From positions 1-34,970 of IMG/VR virus record IMGVR_UViG_3300032241_002742: 34,970 nucleotides of DNA; one strand, given 5' to 3'. Positions 2,266-30,445 of the stretch are shown here, one piece after another. The position numbers and the translations under genes were made by a program. This DNA comes from a virus. Position 1 is the first letter of the stretch, and each line of letters begins with the position of its first letter. The notes under the pieces were generated by a model. The model saw only the letters and a program-made list of their open reading frames with translations, was not told where the DNA came from and ran no database searches.

Positions 2266-2269
2266 CAAG

Positions 2270-5410: not shown

Positions 5411-6208
5411 TTAAATGTCTATTTTTTGGGTTGGGCTATAAGTTTTAGCATCTGAGAAAATATCTATTTCTTCAGTATAAGTATAAGCATCTCCTGGATT
5501 AGCTGTAGGTGGATTTGGAGTCACAGTATATCTCATCTCCCTCTTAGCAGTCGTAATATCAGTGTCAGTAAAAAAGTCAATCTGAACCTTACGAATAAGA
5601 CCATCAGAAGTATCAGAAATTGGCCCAAAGAGATTTATCTTGGATGTAAATTGTAAAGTATAAATTAACGCTCTTCTTGTTTCAAAATCTCCTTCATAAT
5701 CATCTTGAAATGAAACACTGTTTAATGTAAATGGAATATCTCTTTTTTCTCCAATTTCTGGAATTAAATCTACAGTAACTGTAAATGTTGGTTGAAAGAA
5801 TGGTAAAATCTGCTCCACAATTTGCAATGCATCATCTTCCAACTTAGTGAGAATATTTAATTCCAATCCAATGTTATATGGAACAGGCATAAAAACTTGT
5901 TTTAAGTTCACTCCATCAGAAGCTTTAAATGTTTGAGTTGGAGTTCCTTTCCTGGTTCCATCATATTCAATTGAAGTCATCTCAAAAGACATTCTTGGCA
6001 AAGTAATCTCAATTGGTTTATTAAGATCAGGTTGTTGCTCAAGACGTGCTAAGAATTTTTGAACAGGACCATATGCTATAGGAACTTGAATTTGACTGAT
6101 TTCATCACCATTAGAATTTTGATGATTAATATAGGTATCTTTAAAAAGTGTTCCAAAAGCAACAATAGTTTTTTTTATAATTTGATGATAAAAATATGGT
6201 CCCAGCAT
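5411..6208 (-). CDS. gp15: Tail sheath stabilizer and completion protein gp15
   Basis: This 265-residue protein (T4 gp15 has 272) has the family's N-terminal MLGPYFYHQIIKKTIVAFGTLF and central RLEQQPDLNKPIEITLPRMSF stretches. In T4, gp15 forms the hexameric ring that caps the contracted or extended tail and docks the tail to the neck (gp13/gp14). The domain is complete. The C-terminus carries a Pro/Thr-rich extension (TVTPNPPTANPGDAYTYTEE). Its ATG overlaps the last base of the gp14 stop codon, showing tight coupling with gp14. Length, position and sequence all agree, so the call is firm. Confidence 0.9.
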   Translation of the reverse strand: MLGPYFYHQIIKKTIVAFGTLFKDTYINHQNSNGDEISQIQVPIAYGPVQKFLARLEQQPDLNKPIEITLPRMSFEMTSIEYDGTRKGTPTQTFKASDGVNLKQVFMPVPYNIGLELNILTKLEDDALQIVEQILPFFQPTFTVTVDLIPEIGEKRDIPFTLNSVSFQDDYEGDFETRRALIYTLQFTSKINLFGPISDTSDGLIRKVQIDFFTDTDITTAKREMRYTVTPNPPTANPGDAYTYTEEIDIFSDAKTYSPTQKIDI

Positions 6209-7587
6209 TAGTATGTACCAAATGGATTAGATTCTGAAAAATCAACAATTAGATTTGCCTCTGTCTGAAGATCTTTGTTTTCTTCATATTTATTATATAA
6301 ATCATAAGGATCAAAACTTTGAACTGCATATGTTGCAGAAGAAGCAGTTCCGACAACAAGTTCTCCAGGATAAAAGACACCATTATTAATAGAAATCTCA
6401 AGAATATTTGTATCTTTATCCCAAGATTTAACTCTTGCGTTTGTTCCAGATTTAGATCCAACAACAATTTCATTGAAAATATAAGTTCCAATACCAGAAA
6501 GTATTGATGGTGGATCTATACTAATTGTAGGTGCCGTTGTATATCCAGATCCAGCATTTGTAATTAAAATCTGAGATATTGAACCATTGTTTACTGTTGC
6601 TATTCCTGTAGCGGTTGTTCCACCTCCTATTGTTGGAGAACTAAATGTAATATTTGGATTTGTAATATATCCTGTTCCCGAATTGGTGATTAGAATATTC
6701 TGAACACCTTGATATGTTGTTTCAATTGCACATGTAGCTGCAGCTCCAGATCCACCACCACCTATAATTGTAACTTGAGGAGTAACAGTATATCCATATC
6801 CAGAGTTAATCAAACCAATATTTTTTATGATAATATTATTTCCTTTGGATGTTGTTATGGCAACAGCACTTGCATTTGTTCCTCCAGAAAAAGCAGAACT
6901 AATTGCAACTGTTGGAATGGAAGTATAATTATATCCATCATTGTTTAAAATAAATGTCTTAATATATTTGGAACCCAATGCAGCACTTGCCTGAGCTTGA
7001 GTTCCAGACGAAACAAGTTGTAATGTTGTAATATATCCTTGATTTTGAATAAGAGTATCAACTTCATCAATAGAAGTATCAATAACTTCATCTTCATATT
7101 CAAAGAGTTCACATTTTAATTCATAAACATAAAGTTTTCCGAGTTGATAAAATGGTTGCTCATGTTCAACAAATTTAACTTCAAATAATCTTTGACCAAG
7201 TGGAAAATAAACAATATCACCCTCTCTAGGTCTTGATGCCAATATAATCTCATCCGTATCCATGGATGCCAAAAATGGTGCTATAAAATCTTCAAATCGA
7301 TCTCTGGAAATGATAAGACTCACATCATCTCGTAAACTCATTCCAAATTTCGATAAAATATCTCCACCTCCAGTATATCCTTCATAACTATTCACATAAG
7401 CCTCTATAGAAAAATTATCATTAAATTTTGAAGCAGTAACTTCTTTTACAATAGTTTTTCTATCTACAAATTTTCTTGGAATATAGATAACTTCTACACC
7501 AAAAATTTTTAACTGTTCATTGATTAAATCTTGAACTAGTCTTTGTTCACTTGGCGATCCTTGAAGAAAATAGGGATTAAGAGCCAT
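6208..7587 (-). CDS. gp14: Neck protein gp14 with an insert of GxGY repeats
   Basis: Residues 1-195 are a recognisable gp14: MALNPYFLQGSPSEQRLVQDL, then EVIYIPRKFVDR, FGMSLRDDVSLIISRDRF and RPREGDIVYFPLGQRLFEVKF. The C-terminus (about 430-459, ending NLIVDFSESNPFGTY) is also typical. Between them, residues about 200-375 are four Gly-rich repeats with the motif NxGxGYTxxPxVxI, followed by two SGxxAxV units (VVGSKSGTNARV and VVGTASSATYAV). T4 gp14 has 256 residues, so this insert explains most of the 459. In T4, gp14 and gp13 seal the portal after packaging and provide the tail docking site. The inserted repeats probably project from the neck. The ATG is 6 nt from the gp13 stop. Confidence 0.9.
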   Translation of the reverse strand: MALNPYFLQGSPSEQRLVQDLINEQLKIFGVEVIYIPRKFVDRKTIVKEVTASKFNDNFSIEAYVNSYEGYTGGGDILSKFGMSLRDDVSLIISRDRFEDFIAPFLASMDTDEIILASRPREGDIVYFPLGQRLFEVKFVEHEQPFYQLGKLYVYELKCELFEYEDEVIDTSIDEVDTLIQNQGYITTLQLVSSGTQAQASAALGSKYIKTFILNNDGYNYTSIPTVAISSAFSGGTNASAVAITTSKGNNIIIKNIGLINSGYGYTVTPQVTIIGGGGSGAAATCAIETTYQGVQNILITNSGTGYITNPNITFSSPTIGGGTTATGIATVNNGSISQILITNAGSGYTTAPTISIDPPSILSGIGTYIFNEIVVGSKSGTNARVKSWDKDTNILEISINNGVFYPGELVVGTASSATYAVQSFDPYDLYNKYEENKDLQTEANLIVDFSESNPFGTY

Positions 7588-7593
7588 TTTTTA

Positions 7594-8454
7594 TCATCCA
7601 ATCGTGTCGTATGGGGGCATTTCGTAATCCATAGACATTCTATCCATAATTTGATCTATTTCTCTTTGAGCATCTTCATAAATTTCTCTACCATTTAATT
7701 CAACTCCACCAGGCAATTTTACACCTTTAAATTTAATTAAGTTTTGACCCCACTGCCTTTTCATAATTGCAGTAAGATATCTTTTTAAGAAACGATCATT
7801 ATATACGTTAGTGAAAGTATTTGGATCTAAAATACGATAACAATCAATAACAAAAAATGTTCCAAGAGGGGCATATCCCCAATCGATATCTAAGTATAAT
7901 CTACCTTGTCTAATATTAAATCTAATTTGTTTATCCGTTTCTAATAAGAAATCGATATCTTCAAGATATGATTTAACCATTGAATATTGAAGTAATTCAA
8001 CAGAGTTAAAATAATATAAGTCATTCAAAAATAATTGATATTTAATACTAAACATTCCACCAGAAATTGTACTAGTATCAAATTTAAATACTTTTTCAAT
8101 TCCAATTACACTATCAGGAACTTGAATATAATTTGAGTTTTCATAAAAACTAAATGTGGTTGCAGTTCCTACGATATTAGAAGTTCCAGTGGTAGTAACT
8201 ATTCCAGCTCCTGTTGTAGAAACTGATCCTGCAGTCATGGTAAGACCACGACCTCTATTAATGTCATCTTGAGTAACTTGATACTTAAGATACATGCGTT
8301 CAATGCCATCGTAGTGCCTCTCCTGGAAGAGCTGAAGAGCATCATCTACTAAATCATCTATTTGGTCATCATCAAGGTTAATTTCCAATACAGGGTATCC
8401 TAGACGCCTTAAACAGTAGTCAATGAGATCTTGGCGACTTGCTGGCTTAGACAT
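7594..8454 (-). CDS. gp13: Head completion/neck protein gp13
   Basis: This 286-residue protein (T4 gp13 has 309) begins MSKPASRQDLIDYCLRRLGYP, followed by DDDQIDDLVDDALQLFQERHYDG, a classical gp13 N-terminus. The C-terminal half contains KRYLTAIMKRQWGQNLIKF and GREIYEDAQREIDQIMDRM, also characteristic. A Ser/Thr/Gly-rich insertion lies at about 70-105. gp13 joins gp14 on the portal after DNA packaging and is needed for tail joining. The ATG overlaps the last codon of the preceding gene, so translation is coupled. Confidence 0.92.
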   Translation of the reverse strand: MSKPASRQDLIDYCLRRLGYPVLEINLDDDQIDDLVDDALQLFQERHYDGIERMYLKYQVTQDDINRGRGLTMTAGSVSTTGAGIVTTTGTSNIVGTATTFSFYENSNYIQVPDSVIGIEKVFKFDTSTISGGMFSIKYQLFLNDLYYFNSVELLQYSMVKSYLEDIDFLLETDKQIRFNIRQGRLYLDIDWGYAPLGTFFVIDCYRILDPNTFTNVYNDRFLKRYLTAIMKRQWGQNLIKFKGVKLPGGVELNGREIYEDAQREIDQIMDRMSMDYEMPPYDTIG

Positions 8455-8876
8455 TAATAAGTTCCTCCTGTTATAGTATCTGTCCAGATAGGATTACCTG
8501 AATTATCGACTGTAAGAATATAACTACTGTTTGATTGATAAGAATTTGTATTTGGGGATGATACTAAATTTCCACTACTATTAAAATATGCGATTCCATT
8601 TGGGCCATTATAAATTCCATATGCATAATTAATTGGATTTAAAAAAGTCGTATTATTATCAAAATTTACATTCCCATAAAAAGTGGATACTCCAGTTACT
8701 TGGAATGTAGATAATATACCAACTCCACCTATTACATTAGTAGAAACTCCAGCAACATATGCATAACTAGCAACATCTGAATTTGATACATGGGTAATAG
8801 AATTAGCAACTCCAGATATACTGGAAATTACCTTAATTGCATTTTGTTGACCTACTCTTACAGTAATATCTCCCAT
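8454..8876 (-). CDS. Small virion structural protein upstream of gp13
   Basis: This 140-residue protein starts at ATG 8876; a TTG one codon earlier is a less likely start. The ATG overlaps the TGA of the preceding gene (ATGA). It opens MGDITVRVGQQNAIKV, a motif I recall in cyanophage structural proteins in this neighbourhood, and continues with Ser/Thr/Asn/Gly-rich sequence (YVAGVST, VTGVSTFYGNVNF, AYFNSSGNLVSS) of likely beta structure. It ends SGNPIWTDTITGGTY. No cysteine, signal peptide or membrane segment is seen. Position between the baseplate and neck genes suggests a virion component where T4 has gp11, gp12 and wac, but no homology to those is visible. Confidence 0.7.
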   Translation of the reverse strand: MGDITVRVGQQNAIKVISSISGVANSITHVSNSDVASYAYVAGVSTNVIGGVGILSTFQVTGVSTFYGNVNFDNNTTFLNPINYAYGIYNGPNGIAYFNSSGNLVSSPNTNSYQSNSSYILTVDNSGNPIWTDTITGGTY

Positions 8877-9217: not shown

Positions 9218-9241
9218 CTATATCAGAGTATACCTAATAAG

Positions 9242-9623: not shown

Positions 9624-12600
9624 AGAATTGCAATTGATTGTATTGAACTAATAGCAGGAGATAATGCTTGATTTGTTCCGGTCATAACTATTTTAATACG
9701 ATATCCATTAAAATAACCTAGATTATCTGCAGTAAATTGATATTCCAAATATTCTCCACTATTACTTGAACGAACAAAAGCATCTGGTAATCCATCATTA
9801 TTTGCTGGATTAATAATAGTATCTCCATAACCATCACCAGTTGTATCCCTAAGATTATCATAACCTGGGAACAAATAAAATGATTGATTGATAGAAGATA
9901 CATTTGAAGTTATCAAACTGTATAAAACTCTAAAATCTGCAGAAGCATCTCTATATGCACTAATAATAACCTTCAATCCTCTTGCTGGTTGTGCTAAGTT
10001 AATTGGAACTGAAACGTATACAGCAGCATTTGGATCATAATTAAATGAATTAACTCTACCATCTAAAGCATAGTTTGTAATTGGTTCATTAACGCGATTA
10101 CTATGGAACTCTGTAGTTGCATTATCCAAATAAATTACAGGAGATAAATTATTATCAGTAGTTGATAAATTAATCGCAGTTGTAAATGATTTATTTCTTG
10201 GTAAAGAACTCAAATAATTATTTTCATTAACTTTTGAGCAAACTATCCTAGTTGTTGATAATTTATTTAAAGCATTCAATTGTACTGGTTCAAATCCTTG
10301 ATCAATAAATGAAGATTCATTTCCACCCATGCTAGTTCCGCTAACAGTTCTGATAGATGCTGAAGCAGAAGTGGATGATCCTGGAGTAATAATTGCATAA
10401 TTTGGAACTAAAGCATCGAATTGAATATTTCTTGTTGCAGTAATTTGATCTCCACCATCAGATGATTGATTACTAAATGCTAATTGTGGCCAATTGCTTC
10501 CTCCAATATTATCTGAACTTCTATCAATTCCATTTGTATTAATTCCTACTTGTACATAATATCCATTACTTGAAGGATAGACACTATCAATATTAAAAGT
10601 AGTATTAATTCTTCTTAGAGAAACACCACTTAATTCATACTTATAAACTTGAGAAGAATTGTCATGTGACTGAACTAATGTAGAATCTATTCCACGAGTA
10701 ATTCCGCTTAACTGATTGACACCAACTGTGGTATATTTAATTATTTCGTTATCAATTTTAACATATCCTGGATTTGTAGATCCAATAGAAACTCCTTCAA
10801 ATGTTGTAAAGTTACTGGTACTTGCAATTGAAATTGAAGTATCAGAAGCTGATAATCCAGTTGTAAGTGTTGTTGGAGATACATTTGATTTAACATTATT
10901 AAGTGTAACAAAATTTGAAGTTGAATACATTCCATGATCAAAATGATTTACACCAATAAATGTTCCCGTATTATATCCACTTGTTAAGGTAGAAGATCTG
11001 ATTGTAGTTGAAGCAAGAGAAATTGGATTTCCACTATTATCATAATAAACTAAACTTTGACCAAAAGTAAATGAATTTCCTTGAACATTTGAAAGATATA
11101 AAGTGTCAACACCACTAATAGTTGTAACTGTAATTTGAGATCCATTTCCAGTTCCACCAGCAGATGAAGTTACAATACCGACAATATCTCCTGCAACATA
11201 TCCATTTCCTGCATTAACTATAGTTGCTGAAGTAATTGTTCCAACTCCACTTATTGATAATGTTAAACCAGATCCATTTCCAGTAAGAGCATAAGTTGAA
11301 ACGTTTGATTGTGTAGTGTAATTAATACCTCCAGTTGTAATTCCAACAGTTGCTGCTGCACCGCCAGTATTTACAATGTTTCCATAATTATAAATTTTTG
11401 AAGAATCACTGACCTTTCTTCCCGTGGTAAGAATACCAATCATTGAAGAATTAGTAACAGTTGTAATTCCTACACTTAAGTTTCTTGTAAAAGTTGTAAC
11501 TGCATTTGCATCTAAAGTTGTAACATAACCATTACTTGTGTCTAAAGTCGGATTATAAAAATATGCAGTTCCATTCATAGAAGAAGAGAAATCTGCTTTA
11601 TACAACTTAAACATCATATCTTGATATTGGTTCGCTGTCCAAAGAGAACCATTTTGAGATCTAAAGAAACTTCCGAGAGAATACTGTTGAGAATAAACTC
11701 CACCTTGCCCAAGATTAAAGTTTTGACCATTAAAGGTAGATTTGCCCATTTCAGCGATAAAGACTTCATAGGCATCACTATTTGGTGATATTAAGACAAG
11801 TGCATATTGATTGCCAGGAGCCAAATAAATTGGATAATCAAACTTGAAGTTTGTTGCTACTGGAGTTACTGAAGTAATATTTTGTTGACTATCTCTTACT
11901 ATATTCGTAGGGATATTAATTAAATCTGGAGTTAATGTTTTAGATCTTCCAAGAACTGTTGCAGTAGGTGTACCATTATCATTATTAACTGTTCTAATTT
12001 CCAAAGTAACTGGTGCATTCCCCGAATCTTTAGAATAGAAATATATATCGGCTGAAGTTATAAAGGCACCATTTACATCATTTGGAACTGCATTTACAGG
12101 ACTTGAAGAATTATTTGCACCGACAACAAATGTTTGAGCAATTGGATCAACATAATAATAAGTATTTGCAGTAGTTACTGTAGTTTGGAAAGTGCTGGTA
12201 ATTCCAGCAGATCTATAATTAACTGATGCATAAGAAAATGTTTGATCTCCAGATATTGGGGGTAGATTTGTAGAATTTGAATTGAGAACATAAGTTTTAG
12301 TTCCAGTTGAAATTCTTATTGCAGGTGGAGGATTTGTTAAAGGATTTCTTATGAAAAATGTTCCAATCAAATCTCCATATACATCAGAAATTAACCTAAG
12401 ATTTTTAACATATGCAGTTGCCCCACTAGTTTGACCAACTAATTGCATACCCTGAACTAGATATCCAGAATATAATCCTTGTGCTTGTGTGGAAAGAGCA
12501 TAAGTATCAACATTTAAAACTTTACTTGACGCACTGTAAGATGAAGGAACACTTTCAGATGTTACATATGGATTTGCATTATAAGTTTTGGTTGGATTAT

Positions 12601-16819: not shown

Positions 16820-16822
16820 TTT

Positions 16823-18406
16823 TTAGAATTCCAGGATAATTTTAACGTCTTCTTTTTGTCTAGAATTTCTTGAAATCGTGGGTCTATTATCGATATAAAT
16901 TATATCCCCAGACGATTTATTTATGTCTGGATTAGCAAGACCACTATTGAAGGTTATACTTAGATTAATTATATTGTTTCCTGTTGGATTTGTAGTGATT
17001 CCACTAAAAGTTAAATCAATAGAACCAGAAAAACCTCCAGTAGTTACAACTGGAGTTGATGTAGATTGAAAGTTTAAAACTTCTCCACTAACAGAAACTC
17101 CAGAATAATCAGATTGATTTGCGGTTAGAGGATTAAAATATAAAGATCTATCTTTAAAATATTTTATAACATTGGTTTGAGTATCAAAAGATGCAACATA
17201 TCCATATGCAGTTCCAACACCAGATATTGATTGTGAAATTATATCACCAACATTTAATGTTCCAACATATCCATTTTGTACTTTAATTGCATACAAAGAA
17301 GAAAATGAATTATTAGTAAAAACTGCGGTTGAACCAAACGAAGTTGGATTTTTTATAATTCCAACTTGAGCATATTTTGTATCTATTGGATAATCTTTTG
17401 TAGAATCATCAAATCTTGAATAAACTAATACTTTATCTGTTCCTAATTCTTTATAGATATCATATCCATGACCAAGTGATGGTGGAATAATTGGGATTAA
17501 TTCTGCTGCATTTGCAGGATTAAGTGGATTTGGTGCTATTGCTCCAAGATCTACAATTCCATATGTATATCCAGAACCACCAGAAGTTATTGTTACTTTA
17601 GTTACAGATCCTCCAACAACATCAACTAAAGCAGTGGCTCCAGATCCATCTCCCAAAATATTAACTGATTGCCCCGTTACATTTGTGTAACCACTTCCAC
17701 CATTTGCAATATAAACTGTTTTAATTTGATTATTATTTAAAGTTGAATTTCCATTAGTTCTAATTGCAGTAATCTGAGCATCGGTAGATGAACTCCAATT
17801 GTCAGGAACTGTAATATATTGTAGAGAGTCAAATTTAATAATATCACTTGGAGAAACTGTAAAAAGATATTTCCAAACATAACCATCACCACTTGTACCT
17901 GCAGCGGATGGTTCTAAATCTGTAAAAGTTGGTTGGTCTAAAGAAATATTTCCTGTGGTATTAATACCACTAGATCCATTATTAATACAAATATAAACAT
18001 TATAATTAGAATTCATTACATAATAGTTTGCATCATACAATCTATATGATTGAGTTACTGGAGAGGGATTAAGAATACTATAATCATGACGATACATTTC
18101 ATATCTTGAACCCGATGCCCAATCTACTCTTCTTACTATTCTTCTTATATTTGATGCATTTATTGATTGCCCAAACATCATAGGATCATGATAGGCATTC
18201 ATGTAATCATTACAATCAATAGGGTTTGGGGTAGTTTGATCCCAAGTACTACTTCTACCAAATCCTACAGATGATCCAGTAATTGTTGTTCCTGTTGGAT
18301 TTGGTAATGCTGTAAAAACGTAGTAAGAATTTGAAGAATTTTCTACAGAGTTTACAAAATTATCAGCATTAAATAATCTAAATTGATCCGTTACAATTGA
18401 AGCCAT
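16823..18406 (-). CDS. gp8: Baseplate wedge protein gp8
   Basis: This 527-residue protein (T4 gp8 has 334) shows the gp8 N-terminal domain: ADNFVNSVENSSNSYYVFTA, WDQTTPNPIDCNDYMNAYHD, MMFGQSINASNIRRIVRRVDW and SGDGYVWKYLFTVSPSDIIKF. Residues about 235-300 are two GxGY repeats (ANGGSGYTNVTG and TSGGSGYTYGIVDLG), and the rest up to 527 is beta-rich with an SGVGTAYGYVASFD unit near 400. gp8 is a dimeric wedge component that binds gp10, gp7 and gp6 in T4. An exact TATAAATA lies 19 nt upstream, in the gap after the gp7-like gene. Confidence 0.9.
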   Translation of the reverse strand: MASIVTDQFRLFNADNFVNSVENSSNSYYVFTALPNPTGTTITGSSVGFGRSSTWDQTTPNPIDCNDYMNAYHDPMMFGQSINASNIRRIVRRVDWASGSRYEMYRHDYSILNPSPVTQSYRLYDANYYVMNSNYNVYICINNGSSGINTTGNISLDQPTFTDLEPSAAGTSGDGYVWKYLFTVSPSDIIKFDSLQYITVPDNWSSSTDAQITAIRTNGNSTLNNNQIKTVYIANGGSGYTNVTGQSVNILGDGSGATALVDVVGGSVTKVTITSGGSGYTYGIVDLGAIAPNPLNPANAAELIPIIPPSLGHGYDIYKELGTDKVLVYSRFDDSTKDYPIDTKYAQVGIIKNPTSFGSTAVFTNNSFSSLYAIKVQNGYVGTLNVGDIISQSISGVGTAYGYVASFDTQTNVIKYFKDRSLYFNPLTANQSDYSGVSVSGEVLNFQSTSTPVVTTGGFSGSIDLTFSGITTNPTGNNIINLSITFNSGLANPDINKSSGDIIYIDNRPTISRNSRQKEDVKIILEF

Positions 18407-18451: not shown

Positions 18452-21400
18452 TTAGAAAATATTGGTATATTTTAGTGCCCCAGTATCTCTAATCCCATAA
18501 GATCTTCTTTGAATAGAAGCAAATGTGGATAAACCAGAATCAATAGTAAACCCAGTTACTGCAATAGAAACTGGAGAAGATGACCTACTAAATCCTGATA
18601 ATTTACCCCATGAAAATTGTCCCACATAATTTCCATTAGTTGCTATTCCAGTTACTGAAGTTGTAGAAAGTATATTTGATGTGACAATTCCAATTGTATT
18701 CCCTGCTCCAGTATAACTAATTGCATGAATATAGTAAATATTGTCAAGATGAGAAGTTCCAATCCCAACACATGCAGTATCATTACTATCAATTGAAGTA
18801 ACACCTTTACCCACACTTGTATTATAAACATAAATTGGATATCCAACAGATAATTGTGAAAAATCTCCAGAAGAATTTAAATAAAACTTAAGTGCCAATG
18901 GATTTCCAGATGTTCCAGATGTTGTTCCAATACCAGTTATAATTCCAGAAAAACCTGATATATTTGTTATTCCAGAAATATATTCTTTTGAAGTTGTAGG
19001 TAATGGAGTAATCACTTGAGGAGGAGTGGTATATCCAAATCCAGAATTAGTTATTGTAATTGGTGTCGTTAAAGATCCACTACTTGAAACTGATATTGTT
19101 GCAGTAGCAGTTGTTCCAATACCAATACCAATAGTTTTTGGTTTTGATATTTTAACTGTAATGCTATTTCCAGTATATCCAGAACCAGCACTTACAATAC
19201 TTAAAGAACTTATAGTTCCATTTGAACTTACAATTGCAGTTACTGCAGCAGCAACGGGATCTTTAGAACCATTTACAATTAAACCATCAACAGATAATCC
19301 AGTAATACTAGAATTTAAATTTTGCTCATATTTGAAGAAGTTTGCATCATCAACAAATATTTGAGTATCTGTTGATGAAAAATTCTTAATTATTTTTGCA
19401 GTTGGGTAAACCAAAGATTCAATAGAATCTCTTGACTTATAAATTAATTGCTCACTTATTTGAGAATCAACTTTTTGTTTAGTCCAACTTAATGGTTTAA
19501 GATTTGTAGGATCAATACCAATATCAGAATATATATTTGTTTGAATTTTATCTGATGATGGTATATCATAGACAGTTCTTTGATTTTGTGTTGTAGTAAT
19601 TCCTAAAATATTATTATTACTAAAAATTTGTATAGTATCTCCAGTTTTAATTGTCTGATAGACTGTTTTTAAATCACTATCAACTCCTCTAGTTCCTCTA
19701 TAGAAAAATATTGAGATATTATCCTGTGGTAATGGAGGTTCAGTAAATGTAAAAGATGAACCACCATTAAATTGATAAGAATCATTGGGTTTTTGAATGA
19801 CTCCATTTACAAATATCAATAATAAAGAATTTAAATCTATATTTAATGAATCTATATTATTAATATTTGTTTGGAAACTTAACAAACTACCATTATAATA
19901 AAGTGGAAATCTAGTTCTAGATCCATCTTGTAAATTTGCAATAGAATCAATATAATCCAATTCTCCAAAATTCCAAGCAGAAAAAGAATCTGAAAAAGTA
20001 TCAATTACTGTTAACTGGAATTGTGATAAAGGAGAAGAAAGCCTTGAATCAGTTACTAATCCTACTGGAGTAAATACATCACCTTTTTGGAATGCATATC
20101 CATTTCTAGTGATTTGGAAAGAATCTACTTGGAATAATGTTGATCCAATTCCAGTAGTTGAACTTGCAGAAACATTTACATTTAAAAGTAATCCAACTCC
20201 AGTAGTTGTAGTTGTTCCTAAACCAACCCTAGAAACTCCAATTACTGGCATATTACTATAGCTGGGAGAAGGTATTTGTAAAACTGGATTTTTATATCCA
20301 GTTCCTCCAGCACCAATATTAAAAATTAGTGTTCCTCCTACACCAACAGTAGCAGTAATTGAAGCATAGTTATTTCCAACATGGGTTGGATCTGTTACTC
20401 CAATAGAAACATTTCCAAAATATCCAGATCCATAGGTTAATCCTGTTGTTCCAATTCCAATTGAAGTTATTGTTCCATTTGCATCTATAGTTGCACTAAC
20501 AGCAGCTCCAACTAATGGTGCATATCCAAGACCACCACTAGATCCCAGAGAAACAATTACCCCTCCTCTAGGTAAGCGATTTTGATTAATGTCATATATT
20601 GAAGTTATTAAAGAACCATTATTTGAAGAAACACCAGAAAAAATAATACTTGTAATTCCAACACTATTATTTGATATGATTGAATAATCATTTCCTACAT
20701 TATTTGCCGTTGTTGGGGTTTGGAAAATATTATTAATAAAAACAATTCCATTTCCAGTTGAACCCAATCCAACAGTATTAATTCCTTGTGTTGTTAATGT
20801 ATATGTTTGCCCAATTCCAGTAAATTTATAAGAAATATCATCAAACAAGGTATTAGTTGAATAATCTTGTTTTAAATAAACTCTACCTTCAAAAGAAGAT
20901 TTTGGTTGTGGTAGATTTTCTGGAGTTACTGAATTTAATAATGTTCCTATAGGAGGATCTATAAAATGTATTTGTTTTCCAACTATATTAAAAGATCCTC
21001 TATAAATTCTTGCAATAGTAGAATCTGTATGAGTTGTTAAAGAAGATCCTACAGATCCTCTTGATACATTTACAAGTGAAAAACTACCACTATTAGTAAT
21101 TGGTCCAACATTAGTAGTTCCAATTCCAACATTAAGTATCTTCATATATTCATCATCAACACGAAGTAAATCTCCAGCCTTGATTGAAGAAATTCCACTT
21201 AATGCAAATGTAGTTGATGAAGCACTTACTGTTCCACCATTATTTTGTAGAGTATAATTTATTGAAGTATAAGTGATGGGATATTGTACAATATTGTCAA
21301 TTGAAATAATAGATCTTTCTAATCTCTTATTCATCTGTAACGAATGTGCATTTCCTAATCCATAGGAAGTGAATGTTACATAAATTCCTGCACTAGCATA

Positions 21401-24400
21401 ATCAGGTCTTGTGGATAACTTAAAACTATTAGAATCTATTTTAATTGGATAAACTACAGATGGAAGTATTGTAGTTACGACACCAGAAACATTTAATGTT
21501 GCACCAATTCCAACAGAAGTAGATCCAATGCCAATAAATGTTGATCCAGGTGTATAATTTAAAGGTTCTCCTGTGCTAAAGAAATGATTTGGTATTGTAA
21601 ATACCCCAGTTACTGGATTCAATACTGCACTATCAGTTGGATTGAATGTTTTTTGGAATATTGGAGTTCCTTGATAATTTAAATCAAAATCTAGTCTTTG
21701 AATTCTATTGCCATTAGCAGCAGAATATTGTGCAGTATTGACCGTTTCTATCATAGAACCATACTGTAGAGGTGGTGGAACATTAATAGTATCAATATCA
21801 GTATATAAACATTCACTAAATGCACTAATTTTGATATTATTGCCAATTGATTGATCGGGATAGAATACCAAACTAAAATTATTAGAACTATCAAGACTCC
21901 CACCAAAAGTTCCAATTCCTGTAGTGCTTCCTATAGAAAGATATGGATACTGATTAACGTAAGTATTATTGCCATCTTGAATCAGCATTACTTGATGTAA
22001 TACATTTGTAGATCCAACACTTACCTGAACTATTGATTTTATAGATGAAGTATCGTAACGATTTACTGAAACTATACTGGATGCAGTTGATACTGTTGAG
22101 AAATCTGATTGATATTTTATGGTTCTTTCAGATCCTTCAATTTGACCAGGTAGTATAAATCTATAAGTTCCAATACCAGCAGATGTTGAACCGAATCCAA
22201 TATTTTTAGATTTTAAAATTACAGGATTTGTTCCAGTATTTGTAAAGTTTAAAGATAATATTCCAGAGGAAATTGAAGCACCAAATGTTCCGATAGGATT
22301 ATAGGATCCAAATAAACTTGCACTTGTATCAAAATAATATTCGGTAAAATAAGTATCATTTCCATCAGTTGTTACATATAATTCAACATAATTCATTAAA
22401 TTAGTAACAGTATCAATTAATTGGATATTTGAAAATATTGAAGTAGTGCTAGCTGCTGATACTGAAACAAAAGATGTTGATGCTGTAGAAGCTACAGTAT
22501 TATTTGTAGATACTTGACTAATAAATCCTATTGAAGTAGATCCAATACCTATTATTCCACTATAAAAATTATTTTGTAATATTTTTATATCATAATCATA
22601 GTCATATGGATTTACAAGATTAAGATATAAGTAAGATTTTTTAGTTGATGGTTCAGTGTATACTGATAAATCTGTAACTTTTGTGTTATAAATTGATCCT
22701 TTTTCTAATTCAAAAATATTATTAATCGTAATATCATTTAAAGTAATTAATTCTGTTAATTGAAATTGGGATCTATTTGTGTCTATAATTTGAACTAAAA
22801 ATCTATTATAATCTTGTGATGTAATTTCTATAATTTTATTTTGATCAGATGCTGATAAACCTAAACTAGAAAATTGAGAACTTATATCATCAATCTCTAA
22901 AACCCTATTTGTGTTGCAAGTAATATAACTTTGTAAAGATTTATTTTTAAATTTTACAAAATTAGAAGAATTATTGATTATATTATAATCAGTCACAATA
23001 TCAAAATTATTAATGGTATCAACACGATTTTGGTCAATAATATCATAAAGAACAATTGAACTTGTGATACCAGTACTAATTCCTTGAGCACCTGATGTAA
23101 TTCCAACATCAGCAAAATTCTTAAGTCCACTAGTATGAAGAAGATTATTTACTGGTGAAATTAATTCATTAAATTGAATTGGACTTTTAATTGTATATGA
23201 CAAATCTTGATAGTAATCACTATTTTCAATTACTTGACTATCTTTATTTAATTTTCCAATTTCATTTTTCCAACCAAAATCTTTCTTTGTAGAATAATTT
23301 ACTATAAATCTACCATAATTTTCTGCAATTGTTTGAATAGTTGCTATAGTTCCAGATTCTTTACCTTTTATAATAGCACCTACAAATAAATCATATTGAT
23401 ATTTTCCTGAAACGGTTAGATTTTGATTTTGATTTTTATTTGATACTACTGTTAAATTCTGTTCAATAAATGATCCATTTATATTGATAAGTAATTTTTC
23501 CCCACTTTTAAATGCAGAGGATTTTTGAATAACATTAAATTGTGGATATGAATCATATTTAATTGCCGATGCTAAAGAATCTTGCGATGTTTTTGCAATT
23601 CCTGGATTAGAAGTTAAATTAGAAAGATTATATTCAAATTGAAATGGGTTTGCACCAGCAGTTGATGCATTTGTTACAGTAAAGAAATTATACCCATAAT
23701 CTGCTGAATTAAATCCTGTGCCATCATCACTATACTTTTGAATTCCCTCAACAAAAATTGAATCACCAATGGAAACTACTGGATTATAATATGTACTAAA
23801 TCCAAGAATTGGTGTTGTTAATACGCAGGTAACAATACCAGATGCTGAACTATAAACATTATTAATACTTAAACCATTAGAATTATTAGTTGAAATTATA
23901 GTATTTCCACTTCTAGATAATCCTTTTGGCGAATCTACAATATCTACAGAATTTATAGAATTTCCAGATAAATTTGCTTTTAAAAATCCATTATCAATTT
24001 GATTTCTAGAAATAGAATCAATTAAAATTAAATTGGGTGCATATTGATAATTTTTTCCTCCAGATACTACTTCAATGCTTGAGATAGTATCAAAAGAAGT
24101 TAACGTTAGATTTTGTGCTATATTTGCTGTTGGTTTTAATGTTTTATCGGAAGAATATTCAAATCCTTCATTTAAAACAGAAATATTTTTTATAATTCCA
24201 ATTGTTTTTGATTTTGGATTAATTAATGCACCATTACCAATAGACGAAGCAAAACCAGTAATAATAGGTAATTTTTTATAATTTACTCCACCAGATATTA
24301 ATTTAATTTTATTAATTGGTCCAGATGCTATTAATGATTTGGTAGAATACTTTAATACATCAGTTTGAGATTGATTATAGTATAAATTCTCGGGAACATT

Positions 24401-27400
24401 TGAAAGAGAAATATTGAAAGTAGTTGTTCCAATTCCAGAAATAATATAGTCTCCATTATAAACACTATCAGAAAATAGTATTTGTGACGTATTTTGGAAA
24501 CTAGTATCTGAAGTGCTAATAAATCCAGAGTTTTCCAAAGTATAGTATAGAATATTTGGTAAATCTGAAGTATAATTTATTGTTAAAGATGCATCTGTAG
24601 TAACTCCAACAATACCATTCCTAGAAACATTAAAATTACTAGTTGTTCCAGTTGAAACTAATTCATTATTGAAATTACTATCAAAATAAATTCTGAGATT
24701 ATATCCAATCAATGATGAATCTGACAAATTAAATACTAAATTATTATCCTTTATAGTTTGAATTTGTGGATTTATGGGATTTATTTTTTGCAATGCTCCA
24801 CCTGTTGATGCAATAGATACAATCGTTGGTGGAACTATTTGGGAATCATAGTATGTTTTACATAATTGAATATGATCATTATCAACTTTATATGTAAAAT
24901 AAGTAGTTGTAGAAAGACCAGACGCTAATAAATCTTGTGCAGAATAAATGATTTTATTCCCAGTATTTAAATTATGAGAGGGAATATAAATTGTGCTATT
25001 TAAAGTATTAATTCCTACACTACTAAATCCAATTGGATTAATAATTACCTTTTGGAATATTGGATCATATTTTACATATACTGAGGTTGAAGTTCCAATT
25101 CCTACTGAAAGATTTGGTTTAACAACTAGTTGAATGGAATCATTATTTGATAAATTGTGAGTAGATGCTGTTGATACTGTAGTTTGTATTTTTTGTGCTG
25201 TTGCAGTTACTTGATTATATGTTGTTTCTAAAGAATAAAAATAGCTATCTGAAGTTAATCCCAATCCAACAAAAAATACTTCTGAAGAGTTTAGAGTTGT
25301 TTTAATACCAATTGTATTTCTTGATTTATTAGTAACGTATACTATTGTAGAAATACCAGATATTGGTAAATTAAAGGGTGTTGATCCAAACGAAGTTGAT
25401 ATTGAAAGTGGGGAATATGTTATATCAGGTAATGATAAAATTACCTGTTGATTATTTGAAAATTGATGATTTTCAATATAAATTGATTGTGAAGGTATAG
25501 ATCTAGAATATGATGTTATTCCGGCAAATGCAAATGTAGTTGAACTTGATACTCCTGCACTTACTCCATAACCAACCGATTCTTTTGGATTAAAGAATAC
25601 TTGATAATTTAACTTAGAATCAAAATAATTTGATTTTTTTGTAAAAACAAAAGAATCTGGAATATACTCTATAAGTGTGGAATTAGTATATGCAGTTCCA
25701 GAAACTCCTCTATTAACTCTAATTACATTTTGAGGATTGAAAATATTTACAACAGATAAAAATTCATTTCCTATAGAGATACTACTACCAATAGACAAAT
25801 TATTTGGTATGGAAGAAACATAAATGTCTGTAACTACTCCACTTGATGGATTAGTTGGAATATATTGAGTAGTTACTGCATAATATGTGGTTACCCCAAT
25901 GTTATATAAACCATTCAATCCTGCGAGAGATGTTGATAATCCAGAAATTACTACATTATCTCCATTTAAAAAATTATGATATGGATAAACATTTACTTGA
26001 ACTTGATTTCCATCCTTCCATGTAAGAACTGAATTATTATATGTTTGAATATTTGTTTGAATATTATTGATGTCAATTCCAATTATACTATCAACTGAAG
26101 CACTTGCTCCAGTTCCATTTGTTCCAGAATTGTCAAATTGAATCCTATCTCCAACTTGATAATTTTGACCACCATACAGAATATCAAAATCATCTATACT
26201 TCCTTCAGATACGGATTCAACTATTGATTGTTGATTAACAGAGTCACTAGATTCAATTATAAAATCATTAGTTGCATATTGATAATTAAGTTTATATGGG
26301 AAAGTGTTTCTTACTAAGGTAGAATTGTTAAAATCAAATGTTTGGTCTATTATAGAATTATCTGTAATATAATTTGAAGCGTAAGTATTTCCTATAAAAT
26401 ACGGAAAATCACTTATTAAATTTGAACTTAAAGAAGGATCTGTAGTAATTCCTGCAAAATATGCATATACTCCATTTGGAAATTCTGGAGTTTTTGCAAA
26501 TCTTCCATTACTTTCATCTAAATCTCCAGAGTTATTAAATGTATAATCCTCAACAAAAAATCCTGCAGAAAATCCAGATGGTCTATTAATTACTAAACTT
26601 GTGTTTATGTCATAACCTGTATTTAAAATTTTGATAGTTGATGATGTATTTTGTGGGTCAGAATATCCAAATGCTCCATAAATTGGATTTCCATCATATG
26701 CCCATCCAATTATTGGAGAATGTTTGGTTTTATCAGTATCACTAAATGCAGTTCTAATTCCAGAAGAGTATCCAAATACTGAATACTGCAATCCATTATT
26801 TGTTGAATTAATAACTTCATCAGAATTATATTTAAATTTGTTATTAACTGTTAATGATCTAATACTGACATCAAATGAAGCATTAGATCCAGAAGAAACT
26901 ACAGTAATTGATGTATTAGTGCTCGTATATCCTAATCCCGAATTAACAACTACTGCATCTGTTATTAATCCATTATTAATAATAGGTTGAATTACCGCAC
27001 CAGTTCCAGATCCATTTACAATTATATCTGGAGTTGAATAATAATTACTACCACCATATAAAACATTAACATCAGTTATTTTCCCATCTAAAATTACTGG
27101 AGATAATCTTGCGTCTTTGCCATTTAAAATTGATACTAATGGTTTTTTCTCTAAGTTTAAAACGGTAGATCCATAATCACTTCCAGTCTCATACAGATAG
27201 GCATCAATAATACTACCTTTTACAATTGGAGTTGCCGTAACTATTCCAGATGCATATTTAATTGATGTAGTTCCTACACCAACAGTTGCAGAAGTTACTA
27301 CAAGTGAAATTGGTGGATAACTAAAATATTGATATCCAGATCCTGTTCCTCCAAAATCTATAGTATTGTTTCTAATATAATTTGTAATATTAGTTCCACC

Positions 27401-30400
27401 AATTCCAGCATCACATAATTTAAAATAATTATTATCAACTTTAGAAATATAATATTGATTAGTTGTGTTTAATCCTGATATTGCACTAGTTTGATAATTA
27501 TATACAACTAAATCACCATCATTAAATCCATGGTTACTAAAATAAATTGTATCATTAACTGTAGAAATTCCTGATGATTTTACAATTAATTTTCTATTTG
27601 TATAATTTTTCCCACCATCTAAAATTTTTATTTCAGTAAGTGTGTTTTGAATAGTTCCACTTTTAAATTTATGATTTCCTGTGTTATTGACATTTGTAAA
27701 TGATATGGAATTAGTGCCATTAATTGCATCGGATTTTGAATTATAAAGTTTAATAGTTGTATTATTTACAGGAGAGATATAATAAGTGGCATTTTGTGAC
27801 AGATATAGATTCTGATCAGAATTTGATCCTCCTCCACCAGCGGTTGCTATTCCTATTGGAGAATTTCCATTAGAATCATAAATTACAGAATCGCCAGTAT
27901 TTAAATTGTGATTTGATAAAAATGTAATAGTTTCATTAGTTGTATCTACTCCACCATAAAAGTTGGTTAAAAGTCGTGCATCAAATAAAATTTCTCTTCT
28001 TCTTTTTTGAATGACTGGTGTAAGTATTGATCCAGAACCATTTCCTCCAGTTAAAGCCACAGAAACTACTGTATTCAAATCAAAATTTTGTGGTGTTACA
28101 AAAATTTTACTAAGAAATCCACTTACGACTGGTTGAACAAGAGCAGTTGTTCCTGCACCAGAACTTACAGATAATTGAGGAGGATTAATTACATCATAAT
28201 TACTTCCACCATTTAATACTTTAATTGAATTTAAAGGCCCATAGTAAATTTTATCATTTGACTTATAGTTTTGAATTTCAACACCATTAATTAAAATTCC
28301 AATTGATCCAGGATTAGTTTTTTGACCTAAACCACTTTGAATATTTTGAGTTAAGGGGAATTTTTTAAGTAAAAGTTGTGGAGAAATATAAGTATTATTT
28401 GAATTAGTATTTAAAAGGAAATTCTGTGCCCCAGATCCTGATGAAAGATTTCCAAATTCTACATAATTTCCACCAGATCCAATAAATGATCTTGAAGTAT
28501 ACAGTCTAATTTGATTTTTATTAGATAATACTTCAACATAATAATTTCCTTGAGTCAATCCTGGAATAAGAGTTGAACTTGGATAATAATAAACCCAATC
28601 TCCAGTTATAAACGGAACTGGATTACTGAATGAAATAACAGAGTATAAGTTATTGAATGAATTTTGATTTTGAATATAGTTTCCAGAAGCACTTGGTATT
28701 GAAGCACTGATTAAATTTTGATTTATATTATATGAAGGAAGACCATTTGCTGCAACATAAGCATAATTGGTACCATCATCAACATAAAGATTTTGAATAT
28801 CTGAAGTAATTGAATTTCCAAATCCAATGGGAGTTCCACTACTGGAAGCTTTATTTAATCTTCTTCTTATATCATAATTTACATTTGAACTTGGTGTAAA
28901 ACCAATATTGCTTATATTTACTTGATTATTGTTTACATTTATAGCACTAATACTCGGGGGATTTGAAGTTGAAGATACAATTGTTTGAGTTCCTTTTATT
29001 AAAATATCAATTTTATCTCCAATTTTAAGACTAGATTTATCAATTGGACTTGATAATGTAAAAGTACTACCATTATTACCAATTGCATTTACTTGATATC
29101 TTGAACTGGTATTATAAATCCAAGAGTTTGCAAATATTTCTTTATATGAATTATTTGTAGTTGAATTTTTTATAATTTCTCCAAGATAATCTACTGATAT
29201 TATGTCACCTTCATCTATACTATAATTGTTTAATAATGAAGTAAAGTCAGATATTACTCCAGTAATTCTCAAATATACTGGTTTAGTGATATCTCCATCT
29301 TCATATCCAAAAACAGTTTCATTTACTCTTATATCATCTGTAGGATTAATAGTTGCTGTAATTCCTGAACATCCATAAAATTGATTTACACTTTTATTAG
29401 TATAAGTTATACTATTAATTCCACAAATAAGATTTCCTGATTGTGGGAATCCAATCGTAGTATCTACTGTAATAACGGAAGATCCTGGTAAAGTTTGTTC
29501 AATAACTTTTGTTTTTCCAGGGATAGTAAAGGTGCCTACAATTGCAGAAGTATCATTATAACCAACAAAAAGTGAAATTTTATAATAAAGTTTTTGATTT
29601 ATTGTAAATGGTTCTGCTTGAGATACTGAAGCATATGTATTTGGATCATCAGATTTAGTAATTGTTTGCCCAATTAATTTATTTGCATTACCTGATATTA
29701 CCTCTACTACTATTTCTTCTGTTCTTAAGTATTCTGCAGATGATGGTCTTATTAATGAATCACTTAAATTTACAACAGTTGGAGTAACTCCATAAAGAAC
29801 ATTAAATAAAATTCTGAATGATTCTTTTGTTCCTTTAGATTGGTAAAATGATTTTGCACTTTTAATAAAATTTCCAATATTTAAATTAGAATTAAAATCA
29901 CTATTTTCTAATCCTGGAGTAAAAGTATATTTAAATTTCTTATAAAATTCTTTTAAAAATAATACACTTAAATTAGATACAGAAGAATTTGCTGTATGTG
30001 ATGATTGATTAGAAGTAGAAAAAACAAGTTCTTCTGGATCTGATGAATTATGATAACTAGTAATTCCACTAAATCCCCTAATACAACCAGTAAAGGAATT
30101 TGTTGTTATTCCAGTATAGGTAATAATTTCATCATCAATTTTTAATAGACCATAAGACTGTGGATATCCCTTTGTGTTATTAACTATAATCGTAGAATCT
30201 GTAGATGTAATACCAACAGAAAGATAAGTATTATCAACTACAACTTCTGGTGTTAAATTATCTAACTTTAAATATTGATCTAAATTTTCAGCAATATCAA
30301 CTGGTCCACTCTGATATTCCTGAGAAGTATAATACTGCTTTAAGAAATCTGATGTTAAAGGACTTTCTTGTAGTATAAATTCTGGAAGTTGGCTTTGAAT

Positions 30401-30445
30401 TATATCCTGAACTTTAACTCTTGTTTCAAATCCAGTCTGTATCAT
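18452..30445 (-). CDS. Giant gp7-like baseplate wedge protein
   Basis: This protein has 3997 residues (T4 gp7 has 1032). The N-terminus contains PEFILQESPLTSDFLKQYY and SGPVDIAENLDQYLKLDNL, as in large wedge proteins between gp6 and gp8 of marine T4-like phages. A YHYH-like domain lies at about 1190-1350, with GWAYDGNPIYG (His1242 just before it) and NGRFAKTPEFPNGVYAY. About fourteen GxGY/GGxNY repeats are spread over residues 745-3810. DDEIITYTG/TGCIRG modules occur near 60-130 and again near 3098. Residues about 3493-3590 (DGSRTRFPLYYNG, IFVNGVIQ, ISIFFYRGTRG) form a further module. Gly-Ile-Gly-Thr strings are frequent. I infer an extended surface-exposed wedge protein that nucleates the wedge and perhaps contacts the host. 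The gp7 name rests on position. It starts 1 nt after the gp6 stop. Confidence 0.8.
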   Translation of the reverse strand: MIQTGFETRVKVQDIIQSQLPEFILQESPLTSDFLKQYYTSQEYQSGPVDIAENLDQYLKLDNLTPEVVVDNTYLSVGITSTDSTIIVNNTKGYPQSYGLLKIDDEIITYTGITTNSFTGCIRGFSGITSYHNSSDPEELVFSTSNQSSHTANSSVSNLSVLFLKEFYKKFKYTFTPGLENSDFNSNLNIGNFIKSAKSFYQSKGTKESFRILFNVLYGVTPTVVNLSDSLIRPSSAEYLRTEEIVVEVISGNANKLIGQTITKSDDPNTYASVSQAEPFTINQKLYYKISLFVGYNDTSAIVGTFTIPGKTKVIEQTLPGSSVITVDTTIGFPQSGNLICGINSITYTNKSVNQFYGCSGITATINPTDDIRVNETVFGYEDGDITKPVYLRITGVISDFTSLLNNYSIDEGDIISVDYLGEIIKNSTTNNSYKEIFANSWIYNTSSRYQVNAIGNNGSTFTLSSPIDKSSLKIGDKIDILIKGTQTIVSSTSNPPSISAINVNNNQVNISNIGFTPSSNVNYDIRRRLNKASSSGTPIGFGNSITSDIQNLYVDDGTNYAYVAANGLPSYNINQNLISASIPSASGNYIQNQNSFNNLYSVISFSNPVPFITGDWVYYYPSSTLIPGLTQGNYYVEVLSNKNQIRLYTSRSFIGSGGNYVEFGNLSSGSGAQNFLLNTNSNNTYISPQLLLKKFPLTQNIQSGLGQKTNPGSIGILINGVEIQNYKSNDKIYYGPLNSIKVLNGGSNYDVINPPQLSVSSGAGTTALVQPVVSGFLSKIFVTPQNFDLNTVVSVALTGGNGSGSILTPVIQKRRREILFDARLLTNFYGGVDTTNETITFLSNHNLNTGDSVIYDSNGNSPIGIATAGGGGSNSDQNLYLSQNATYYISPVNNTTIKLYNSKSDAINGTNSISFTNVNNTGNHKFKSGTIQNTLTEIKILDGGKNYTNRKLIVKSSGISTVNDTIYFSNHGFNDGDLVVYNYQTSAISGLNTTNQYYISKVDNNYFKLCDAGIGGTNITNYIRNNTIDFGGTGSGYQYFSYPPISLVVTSATVGVGTTSIKYASGIVTATPIVKGSIIDAYLYETGSDYGSTVLNLEKKPLVSILNGKDARLSPVILDGKITDVNVLYGGSNYYSTPDIIVNGSGTGAVIQPIINNGLITDAVVVNSGLGYTSTNTSITVVSSGSNASFDVSIRSLTVNNKFKYNSDEVINSTNNGLQYSVFGYSSGIRTAFSDTDKTKHSPIIGWAYDGNPIYGAFGYSDPQNTSSTIKILNTGYDINTSLVINRPSGFSAGFFVEDYTFNNSGDLDESNGRFAKTPEFPNGVYAYFAGITTDPSLSSNLISDFPYFIGNTYASNYITDNSIIDQTFDFNNSTLVRNTFPYKLNYQYATNDFIIESSDSVNQQSIVESVSEGSIDDFDILYGGQNYQVGDRIQFDNSGTNGTGASASVDSIIGIDINNIQTNIQTYNNSVLTWKDGNQVQVNVYPYHNFLNGDNVVISGLSTSLAGLNGLYNIGVTTYYAVTTQYIPTNPSSGVVTDIYVSSIPNNLSIGSSISIGNEFLSVVNIFNPQNVIRVNRGVSGTAYTNSTLIEYIPDSFVFTKKSNYFDSKLNYQVFFNPKESVGYGVSAGVSSSTTFAFAGITSYSRSIPSQSIYIENHQFSNNQQVILSLPDITYSPLSISTSFGSTPFNLPISGISTIVYVTNKSRNTIGIKTTLNSSEVFFVGLGLTSDSYFYSLETTYNQVTATAQKIQTTVSTASTHNLSNNDSIQLVVKPNLSVGIGTSTSVYVKYDPIFQKVIINPIGFSSVGINTLNSTIYIPSHNLNTGNKIIYSAQDLLASGLSTTTYFTYKVDNDHIQLCKTYYDSQIVPPTIVSIASTGGALQKINPINPQIQTIKDNNLVFNLSDSSLIGYNLRIYFDSNFNNELVSTGTTSNFNVSRNGIVGVTTDASLTINYTSDLPNILYYTLENSGFISTSDTSFQNTSQILFSDSVYNGDYIISGIGTTTFNISLSNVPENLYYNQSQTDVLKYSTKSLIASGPINKIKLISGGVNYKKLPIITGFASSIGNGALINPKSKTIGIIKNISVLNEGFEYSSDKTLKPTANIAQNLTLTSFDTISSIEVVSGGKNYQYAPNLILIDSISRNQIDNGFLKANLSGNSINSVDIVDSPKGLSRSGNTIISTNNSNGLSINNVYSSASGIVTCVLTTPILGFSTYYNPVVSIGDSIFVEGIQKYSDDGTGFNSADYGYNFFTVTNASTAGANPFQFEYNLSNLTSNPGIAKTSQDSLASAIKYDSYPQFNVIQKSSAFKSGEKLLININGSFIEQNLTVVSNKNQNQNLTVSGKYQYDLFVGAIIKGKESGTIATIQTIAENYGRFIVNYSTKKDFGWKNEIGKLNKDSQVIENSDYYQDLSYTIKSPIQFNELISPVNNLLHTSGLKNFADVGITSGAQGISTGITSSIVLYDIIDQNRVDTINNFDIVTDYNIINNSSNFVKFKNKSLQSYITCNTNRVLEIDDISSQFSSLGLSASDQNKIIEITSQDYNRFLVQIIDTNRSQFQLTELITLNDITINNIFELEKGSIYNTKVTDLSVYTEPSTKKSYLYLNLVNPYDYDYDIKILQNNFYSGIIGIGSTSIGFISQVSTNNTVASTASTSFVSVSAASTTSIFSNIQLIDTVTNLMNYVELYVTTDGNDTYFTEYYFDTSASLFGSYNPIGTFGASISSGILSLNFTNTGTNPVILKSKNIGFGSTSAGIGTYRFILPGQIEGSERTIKYQSDFSTVSTASSIVSVNRYDTSSIKSIVQVSVGSTNVLHQVMLIQDGNNTYVNQYPYLSIGSTTGIGTFGGSLDSSNNFSLVFYPDQSIGNNIKISAFSECLYTDIDTINVPPPLQYGSMIETVNTAQYSAANGNRIQRLDFDLNYQGTPIFQKTFNPTDSAVLNPVTGVFTIPNHFFSTGEPLNYTPGSTFIGIGSTSVGIGATLNVSGVVTTILPSVVYPIKIDSNSFKLSTRPDYASAGIYVTFTSYGLGNAHSLQMNKRLERSIISIDNIVQYPITYTSINYTLQNNGGTVSASSTTFALSGISSIKAGDLLRVDDEYMKILNVGIGTTNVGPITNSGSFSLVNVSRGSVGSSLTTHTDSTIARIYRGSFNIVGKQIHFIDPPIGTLLNSVTPENLPQPKSSFEGRVYLKQDYSTNTLFDDISYKFTGIGQTYTLTTQGINTVGLGSTGNGIVFINNIFQTPTTANNVGNDYSIISNNSVGITSIIFSGVSSNNGSLITSIYDINQNRLPRGGVIVSLGSSGGLGYAPLVGAAVSATIDANGTITSIGIGTTGLTYGSGYFGNVSIGVTDPTHVGNNYASITATVGVGGTLIFNIGAGGTGYKNPVLQIPSPSYSNMPVIGVSRVGLGTTTTTGVGLLLNVNVSASSTTGIGSTLFQVDSFQITRNGYAFQKGDVFTPVGLVTDSRLSSPLSQFQLTVIDTFSDSFSAWNFGELDYIDSIANLQDGSRTRFPLYYNGSLLSFQTNINNIDSLNIDLNSLLLIFVNGVIQKPNDSYQFNGGSSFTFTEPPLPQDNISIFFYRGTRGVDSDLKTVYQTIKTGDTIQIFSNNNILGITTTQNQRTVYDIPSSDKIQTNIYSDIGIDPTNLKPLSWTKQKVDSQISEQLIYKSRDSIESLVYPTAKIIKNFSSTDTQIFVDDANFFKYEQNLNSSITGLSVDGLIVNGSKDPVAAAVTAIVSSNGTISSLSIVSAGSGYTGNSITVKISKPKTIGIGIGTTATATISVSSSGSLTTPITITNSGFGYTTPPQVITPLPTTSKEYISGITNISGFSGIITGIGTTSGTSGNPLALKFYLNSSGDFSQLSVGYPIYVYNTSVGKGVTSIDSNDTACVGIGTSHLDNIYYIHAISYTGAGNTIGIVTSNILSTTSVTGIATNGNYVGQFSWGKLSGFSRSSSPVSIAVTGFTIDSGLSTFASIQRRSYGIRDTGALKYTNIF

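Follow-up and report, generated by a model that had tools for sequence, protein, structure and literature searches.

We have identified a family of short beta-repeats, the GxGY repeat, that is carried by several unrelated structural proteins encoded in IMG/VR record IMGVR_UViG_3300032241_002742. The complete record, 34,970 bases long, is the window analyzed here; judged by its sequence, it comes from a marine T4-like cyanophage. The repeat spans about 40 residues and has the consensus (I/V)x(I/V)xNxGxGYTxxPxVxI-x(n)-GxGAxAxA. As far as our searches reach, the family is uncatalogued, being absent from Pfam, NCBIfam and the PDB, and it is spread over surface proteins of phages and bacteria. Its copies are inherited by position, and in one virion protein outside the cyanophages the site of insertion can be compared with an empty one. 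We think it reasonably probable that the repeats are rigid, exposed modules by which structural proteins that self-assemble are extended.

One repeat family in four virion proteins

Copies were counted with a hidden Markov model (HMM) that was trained on cyanophage copies and scanned along each protein in sliding windows. Four lie in the neck protein gp14 (aa 213-368, 34-36 bits) and two in the baseplate wedge protein gp8 (aa 231-288; 22.9 and 16.0 bits). The giant gp7-like baseplate wedge protein has ten at 10 bits or more and 14 at 6.6 bits or more, the DUF4815 protein has one clear copy (13.7 bits) and one weak copy (7.3 bits), and no copy reaches the reported level in gp6, gp13, gp15 or gp25. 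An earlier sequence-only reading of the window had counted four, two, about fourteen and two copies in these four proteins; these counts are essentially right, the weak members being the second DUF4815 copy and three or four of those in the gp7-like protein. A whole-protein hmmsearch with the gp14 model missed the gp8 and DUF4815 copies that the sliding windows found, probably because domain calling fails in long proteins.

G, S, T, N and I are abundant in the structural proteins of the window, as would be expected if the matches reflected nothing beyond a glycine/tyrosine-rich composition. Shuffled sequences argue strongly against such a chance origin. When local composition was kept, the pooled model at 9 bits gave 156 real hits where the shuffles predict 0.5; the pooled model was trained on its own hits, and the independent test is an HMM built from gp14 alone. 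Compared with shuffles that preserved global or local composition, this gp14-only model scored 11.0 and 10.4 bits on gp8 (maximum in 40 shuffles, 7.8), up to 25 bits on the gp7-like protein (shuffle maximum 10.2) and 10.3 on the DUF4815 protein (shuffle maximum 8.4). Composition as the sole basis of the match, which the sequence-only reading had named as a result that would refute it, is thereby ruled out, and we give chance practically no credence. A model of one gene detects the copies of the others above composition, which by sequence criteria makes them a single family, and the relatives of this phage carry copies as well.

Copies are inherited in place

That at least four genes hold the same repeat could mean that it is a mobile cassette, actively copied by recombination between the structural genes of one genome, as the sequence-only reading had proposed. 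Cross-gene identity is indeed marginally higher within a genome than between genomes (0.316 versus 0.310, a difference reached by 25 of 500 relabelled sets). The nearest relatives of individual copies, however, point the other way. Among 153 copies from the four genes in ten genomes, 113 have their nearest match in the same gene of another phage and only 3 in another gene of their own genome, against 8.1 expected, and in gp14 the closest relative of 119 of 120 copies lies at the matching position in a different phage. The gp8 positions and most of those in the gp7-like protein, including the copies near aa 740, 940, 1120 and 1160, are collinear across genera, and no high-identity DNA repeats linking the genes were found. 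The copies cluster with others from their own gene and, in gp14, from their own position, an outcome that the sequence-only reading had itself named as refuting its proposal. Active copying is largely refuted for the time depth sampled, and we regard it as very improbable.

Nearly all of the 80 gp14 proteins compared have four copies; two metagenomic ones have six, and that of S-ShM2 has only two clear copies. Calls of a fifth copy were mostly a weak N-terminal half unit and were rejected. At the same position in different phages the gp14 repeats are 42-64% identical, as against about 34% at different positions, within one protein as well as between proteins. In the gp14 sequences L084 and L096, the two extra copies resemble each other most at the DNA level, which points to local tandem duplication. 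In gp8, both repeat sites are kept in 79 aligned proteins with much drift, and the model scores one or both copies in 45 of them. The median ratio of nonsynonymous to synonymous substitution rates (dN/dS) is 0.42 in the repeats and 0.12 in the core, with many pairs near saturation; the repeats are under purifying selection, though weaker than that on the core. Together, the nearest-copy counts and the collinear positions indicate an old spread of the repeat between genes, followed by inheritance at fixed sites; its sharing between genes appears ancient, with rare local tandem duplication since.

Carriers outside the window

Copies were present in 14 of the 15 phage records searched, in some also within genes labelled tail fibre, baseplate wedge, tail protein or virion structural protein. 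A search of genome collections recovered 55 bacterial loci with the repeat, and the modal spacing of 39-42 residues is the same in bacteria and cyanophages; a plasmid search with the repeat gave zero matches. Two of the sequences, from Pseudomonas, are tail tube proteins of the lambda type (Pfam Phage_TTP_11). Their alignment with phages D3 and PseuP_224 shows a two-copy cassette at a single site, and phage D3, which lacks it, has a clean empty site there. On these homologous virion proteins the repeat is thus optional and its site fixed. In Arthrobacter, the major head protein of a prophage (PHROG E 5e-28) carries copies at the C-terminal end. In a metagenome-assembled genome (MAG) of Opitutia, a flagellin (L209:3663-7172) bears twelve copies between Flagellin_N and Flagellin_C, a region that is surface-exposed in other flagellins. 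Other bacterial carriers are secreted proteins, among them a GH64 glucanase and a pectinesterase that has a secretion tail.

Predicted fold and database matches

The structural check that the sequence-only reading had called for gave a common three-strand order in gp14 and gp8. AlphaFold2, run on 62 gp14 sequences, predicts gp14 aa 190-429 confidently (predicted local distance difference test, pLDDT, about 73-94 per ten residues), and DSSP assigns each repeat a long, a short and a third strand in a predicted unit of about 42 residues. The strand order is the same in the model of gp8 aa 230-290 (pLDDT near 85 in the repeats), so that the two modelled host proteins, otherwise different, are predicted to share it.

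Pfam, NCBIfam and PDB sequence searches returned no entry for the repeat, even when bacterial proteins with 10-14 copies were the queries, and a PDB profile search gave insignificant hits to unrelated proteins only. A Foldseek search of the gp14 model against the PDB had zero matches at E<=0.001, and among the weaker ones the T4 gp14 core came first; against a library of predicted viral structures it had 66, many of them cyanophage tail fibre, baseplate and structural proteins. The template modelling and root-mean-square deviation values from Foldseek were set aside, the gp14 core model being poor and the chain extended. Neither gp14 nor gp8 matched an immunoglobulin (Ig)-like or FN3 Pfam family at E<=1, and the single fn3 match in the repeat-bearing bacterial proteins scanned was one stretch in L183. 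The empty PDB search and the repeating three-strand unit in the model argue against an Ig sandwich fold. We found neither the motif nor a described cyanophage repeat in the open-access literature.

Placement within gp14 and gp8

The window gp14 comprises a core (aa 1-170), the repeat array (aa 212-369), a second module (aa 370-429) and a conserved tail (aa 430-459). The beta-barrel region of the core is homologous to T4 gp14 27-184 (Pfam E 5.6e-32; PDB chain E 3.4e-24; hhalign 99.6%). Homology stops near T4 residue 181-184, and the repeats occupy the C-terminal arm, which runs to about 290 residues in place of the 72-80 of T4. In gp8, homology flanks the repeats (T4 10-211 at E 7e-9 and T4 244-334 at E 3e-4), and the repeats are an internal expansion in place of about 32 T4 residues. 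The description in the sequence-only reading of an insert in an otherwise standard T4 protein therefore suits gp8. For gp14, "extended arm" is the safer term because the last ~30 residues, the conserved tail, resemble the T4 end only weakly (2.8 bits, E 6.5).

Coordinates and neighbouring features

Positions of the four genes and of the individual copies are collected in Table 1. From gp25 to gp15, the structural genes are encoded on the minus strand, and their order matches that of S-SRM01; by gp14 and gp8, this Synechococcus phage, Synechococcus phage S-T4 and Prochlorococcus phage P-SSM2 are among the nearest named relatives.

Table 1. Repeat-bearing genes of the window and the GxGY copies within them.
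Feature	Position	Strand	Evidence
gp14-like neck protein, 459 aa	6208..7587	-	Pfam T4_neck-protein E 5.6e-32; T4 gp14 in PDB E 3.4e-24 over aa 3-172; AlphaFold2
gp14 repeat 1, aa 212-243	6859..6954	-	35.0 bits; same-position identity 0.63 across 80 phages
gp14 repeat 2, aa 255-286	6730..6825	-	34.1 bits; same-position identity 0.64
gp14 repeat 3, aa 296-330	6598..6702	-	35.8 bits; same-position identity 0.42
gp14 repeat 4, aa 338-369	6481..6576	-	34.5 bits; same-position identity 0.51
DUF4815 / "VrlC" virion protein, 2399 aa	9620..16819	-	Pfam DUF4815 E 6.6e-63
DUF4815 protein weak repeat, aa 1830-1851	11267..11332	-	7.3 bits, near noise
DUF4815 protein repeat, aa 1866-1891	11147..11224	-	13.7 bits; orthologous position in S-SRM01, P-SSM2, S-CAM7
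gp8-like baseplate wedge protein, 527 aa	16823..18406	-	Pfam Phage-Gp8 E 4.6e-11; PHROG 438 E 3.3e-153
gp8 repeat 1, aa 231-259	17630..17716	-	22.9 bits; AlphaFold2 strands 230-235, 243-252, 255-264
gp8 repeat 2, aa 271-288	17543..17596	-	16.0 bits; AlphaFold2 strands 267-278, 283-286
Giant gp7-like baseplate wedge protein, 3997 aa	18452..30445	-	PHROG 2885 E 0, "baseplate wedge subunit"
gp7-like repeat, aa 741-768	28142..28225	-	34.7 bits; collinear at aa 738-754 in eight other phages
gp7-like repeat, aa 939-962	27560..27631	-	22.8 bits
gp7-like repeat, aa 1035-1060	27266..27343	-	10.6 bits
gp7-like repeat, aa 1131-1150	26996..27055	-	22.2 bits
gp7-like repeat, aa 1166-1190	26876..26950	-	18.9 bits
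gp7-like repeat, aa 1425-1449	26099..26173	-	14.0 bits
gp7-like weak repeat, aa 2047-2063	24257..24307	-	8.2 bits
gp7-like repeat, aa 2124-2145	24011..24076	-	17.9 bits
gp7-like repeat, aa 3339-3357	20375..20431	-	15.6 bits
gp7-like weak repeat, aa 3380-3394	20264..20308	-	8.0 bits
gp7-like repeat, aa 3749-3781	19103..19201	-	18.5 bits
gp7-like repeat, aa 3796-3813	19007..19060	-	25.5 bits

Two further modules are shared between these proteins. The second module, with the pattern GE..xG..SGA, directly follows the repeats in gp14 (window 6301-6480) and recurs in the DUF4815 protein (aa 860-881, 1372-1388 and 1429-1473) and the gp7-like protein (aa 2341-2375), where its copies score 8-12 bits against a shuffle maximum of 7.5. 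A third (L-I-DDEIITYTG...RG) is present at aa 85-133, 324-371, 1540-1590 and 3079-3135 of the gp7-like protein, with a single copy in the DUF4815 protein (aa 2019-2042; 21.4 bits against a shuffle maximum of 11.1). The gp7-like protein also contains a YHYH domain (Pfam E 3.2e-26; aa 1213-1333, window 26447-26809). In phage HTVC008M, the protein at the gp7 position (33435-36485) is labelled "head closure Hc2", a label that is consistent with annotation transfer through the shared repeat.

Outside the structural genes, an open reading frame (ORF) upstream of gp25 (window 33121-33462) resembles S-adenosylmethionine decarboxylase and is a candidate auxiliary metabolic gene; S-SRM01 has an annotated S-adenosylmethionine decarboxylase in a similar place. 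The ORF at window 1665-2315, adjoining tail fibre-like genes, has by eye a GIY-YIG-like start (YTYAYLR...YYIGKGKG) and is a candidate homing endonuclease.

Discussion

The spread of the repeat over unrelated structural proteins looks like the legacy of an ancestral, general-purpose surface building block and not like current shuffling. In the arrangement we envisage, strand A of each unit would be long and run up to the GxGY turn; the short strand B (PxVxI) and then strand C (GAxAxA-V) would follow in the predicted strand order, and one unit would stack on the next through a C-A hairpin. The cyanophage units would have been acquired before the sampled genera diverged: an array in the C-terminal arm of gp14 after the neck barrel, two units in the internal expansion of gp8, and many in the gp7-like protein and tail fibres. 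They then stayed in place and diverged vertically under purifying selection, with occasional tandem duplication. Most likely they would work, without catalysis, as a strut and as a coat on the surface of neck, baseplate and fibres, adding reach, bracing and weak non-specific contacts, much as Ig-like domains may do on other phages. The sequence-only reading had likewise suggested a portable surface module, and this part of it stands: the repeat sits on unrelated structural proteins within and outside the cyanophages, has an empty site in one of them, and is probably surface-exposed.

Some observations weigh against this assignment. That gp14 has four copies almost throughout might reflect one specific contact inside the virion, with gp15 or the sheath for instance, in place of an exposed coat. 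The gp14 core is poorly predicted by AlphaFold2, and the placement of the array on the virion is taken from T4; the bacterial carriers, moreover, are mostly MAG sequences that were picked by similarity to gp14. It is conceivable, though we consider it unlikely, that the array is a purely internal part that bridges the neck to the tail terminator or sheath, the likeness elsewhere reflecting a favourable beta-repeat fold. The strong positional conservation of gp14 repeats 1 and 2 would agree with this, as would the T4 arm at the corresponding place (178-256), which shows no order when the neck is isolated and in the virion touches the tail terminator gp15 (PMC12270204). Yet the length of gp14 is not fixed, as the two-copy and six-copy proteins attest, and among tail tube proteins the same unit is inserted in some and missing from others.

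Alternatively, the repeats of neck, baseplate and fibres may be a host-glycan-binding decoration, weakly attaching to cyanobacterial lipopolysaccharide or capsule and keeping virions near the cell. The repeat is carried by proteins that are secreted or lie at the surface, and some of these are enzymes acting on polysaccharides. The optional, exposed Ig-like domains of tail tubes have been proposed to act in this way, through weak contacts with cell-surface carbohydrates (PMC8718954). In experimental evolution, cyanophage adaptation hits baseplate and other virion genes, gp8 included (PMC9910659), which fits exposure although the repeat itself was not concerned. On the other side, the residues that do not vary are Gly, Tyr and Pro at turns, a pattern that suggests a structural role, and there are zero matches to dedicated carbohydrate-binding families. 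Positive selection, which we considered as a sign of receptor contact, was not seen at the median dN/dS given above. We hold glycan binding to be a minority possibility, somewhat doubtful as it stands.

A wider and decidedly speculative idea, which we consider unlikely, is that the undescribed beta-repeat might be a shared adhesive surface currency of phages and bacteria, exchanged between them and displayed on capsids, tail tubes, necks, baseplates, fibres, flagellin and secreted glycan-acting enzymes. The tail tube proteins with and without the cassette make function directly testable in a growable Pseudomonas phage. Cyanophages of this type are abundant in the sea, and unannotated giant proteins make up much of their structural mass; naming a repeat common to neck, baseplate and fibre proteins offers a handle on them. 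The shared repeat may also account for automatic mis-annotation, the HTVC008M label being an example.

Comparison with known systems

A close parallel to the GxGY repeat is with the Ig-like (Big_1/Big_2/FN3) decoration domains, which are also optional, exposed beta-modules on unrelated phage structural proteins and bacterial surface proteins. An Ig domain, however, is one globular sandwich, of a type for which structures have been solved and Pfam families exist, whereas the GxGY unit is a tandem repeat without a match in Pfam, NCBIfam or the PDB and often lies inside its host protein, not at the end. T4 gp14 and gp8 are homologous to the window gp14 aa 1-170 and to the N- and C-terminal parts of the window gp8, yet the T4 genome, unlike the window, has no GxGY match anywhere. 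PHROG 460, 438, 2885 and 701 (cyanophage gp14, gp8, gp7-like and virion structural protein) already include the proteins of the window; they are whole-protein clusters, none of which names or models the repeat. Their profiles cross-match through it, and because it is shared they hit proteins such as a prophage head protein or tail tube. Finally, the BACON-domain tandem repeats of crAss-like phages, likewise a repeated phage-protein module, have been discussed as carbohydrate binding (PMC6949934).

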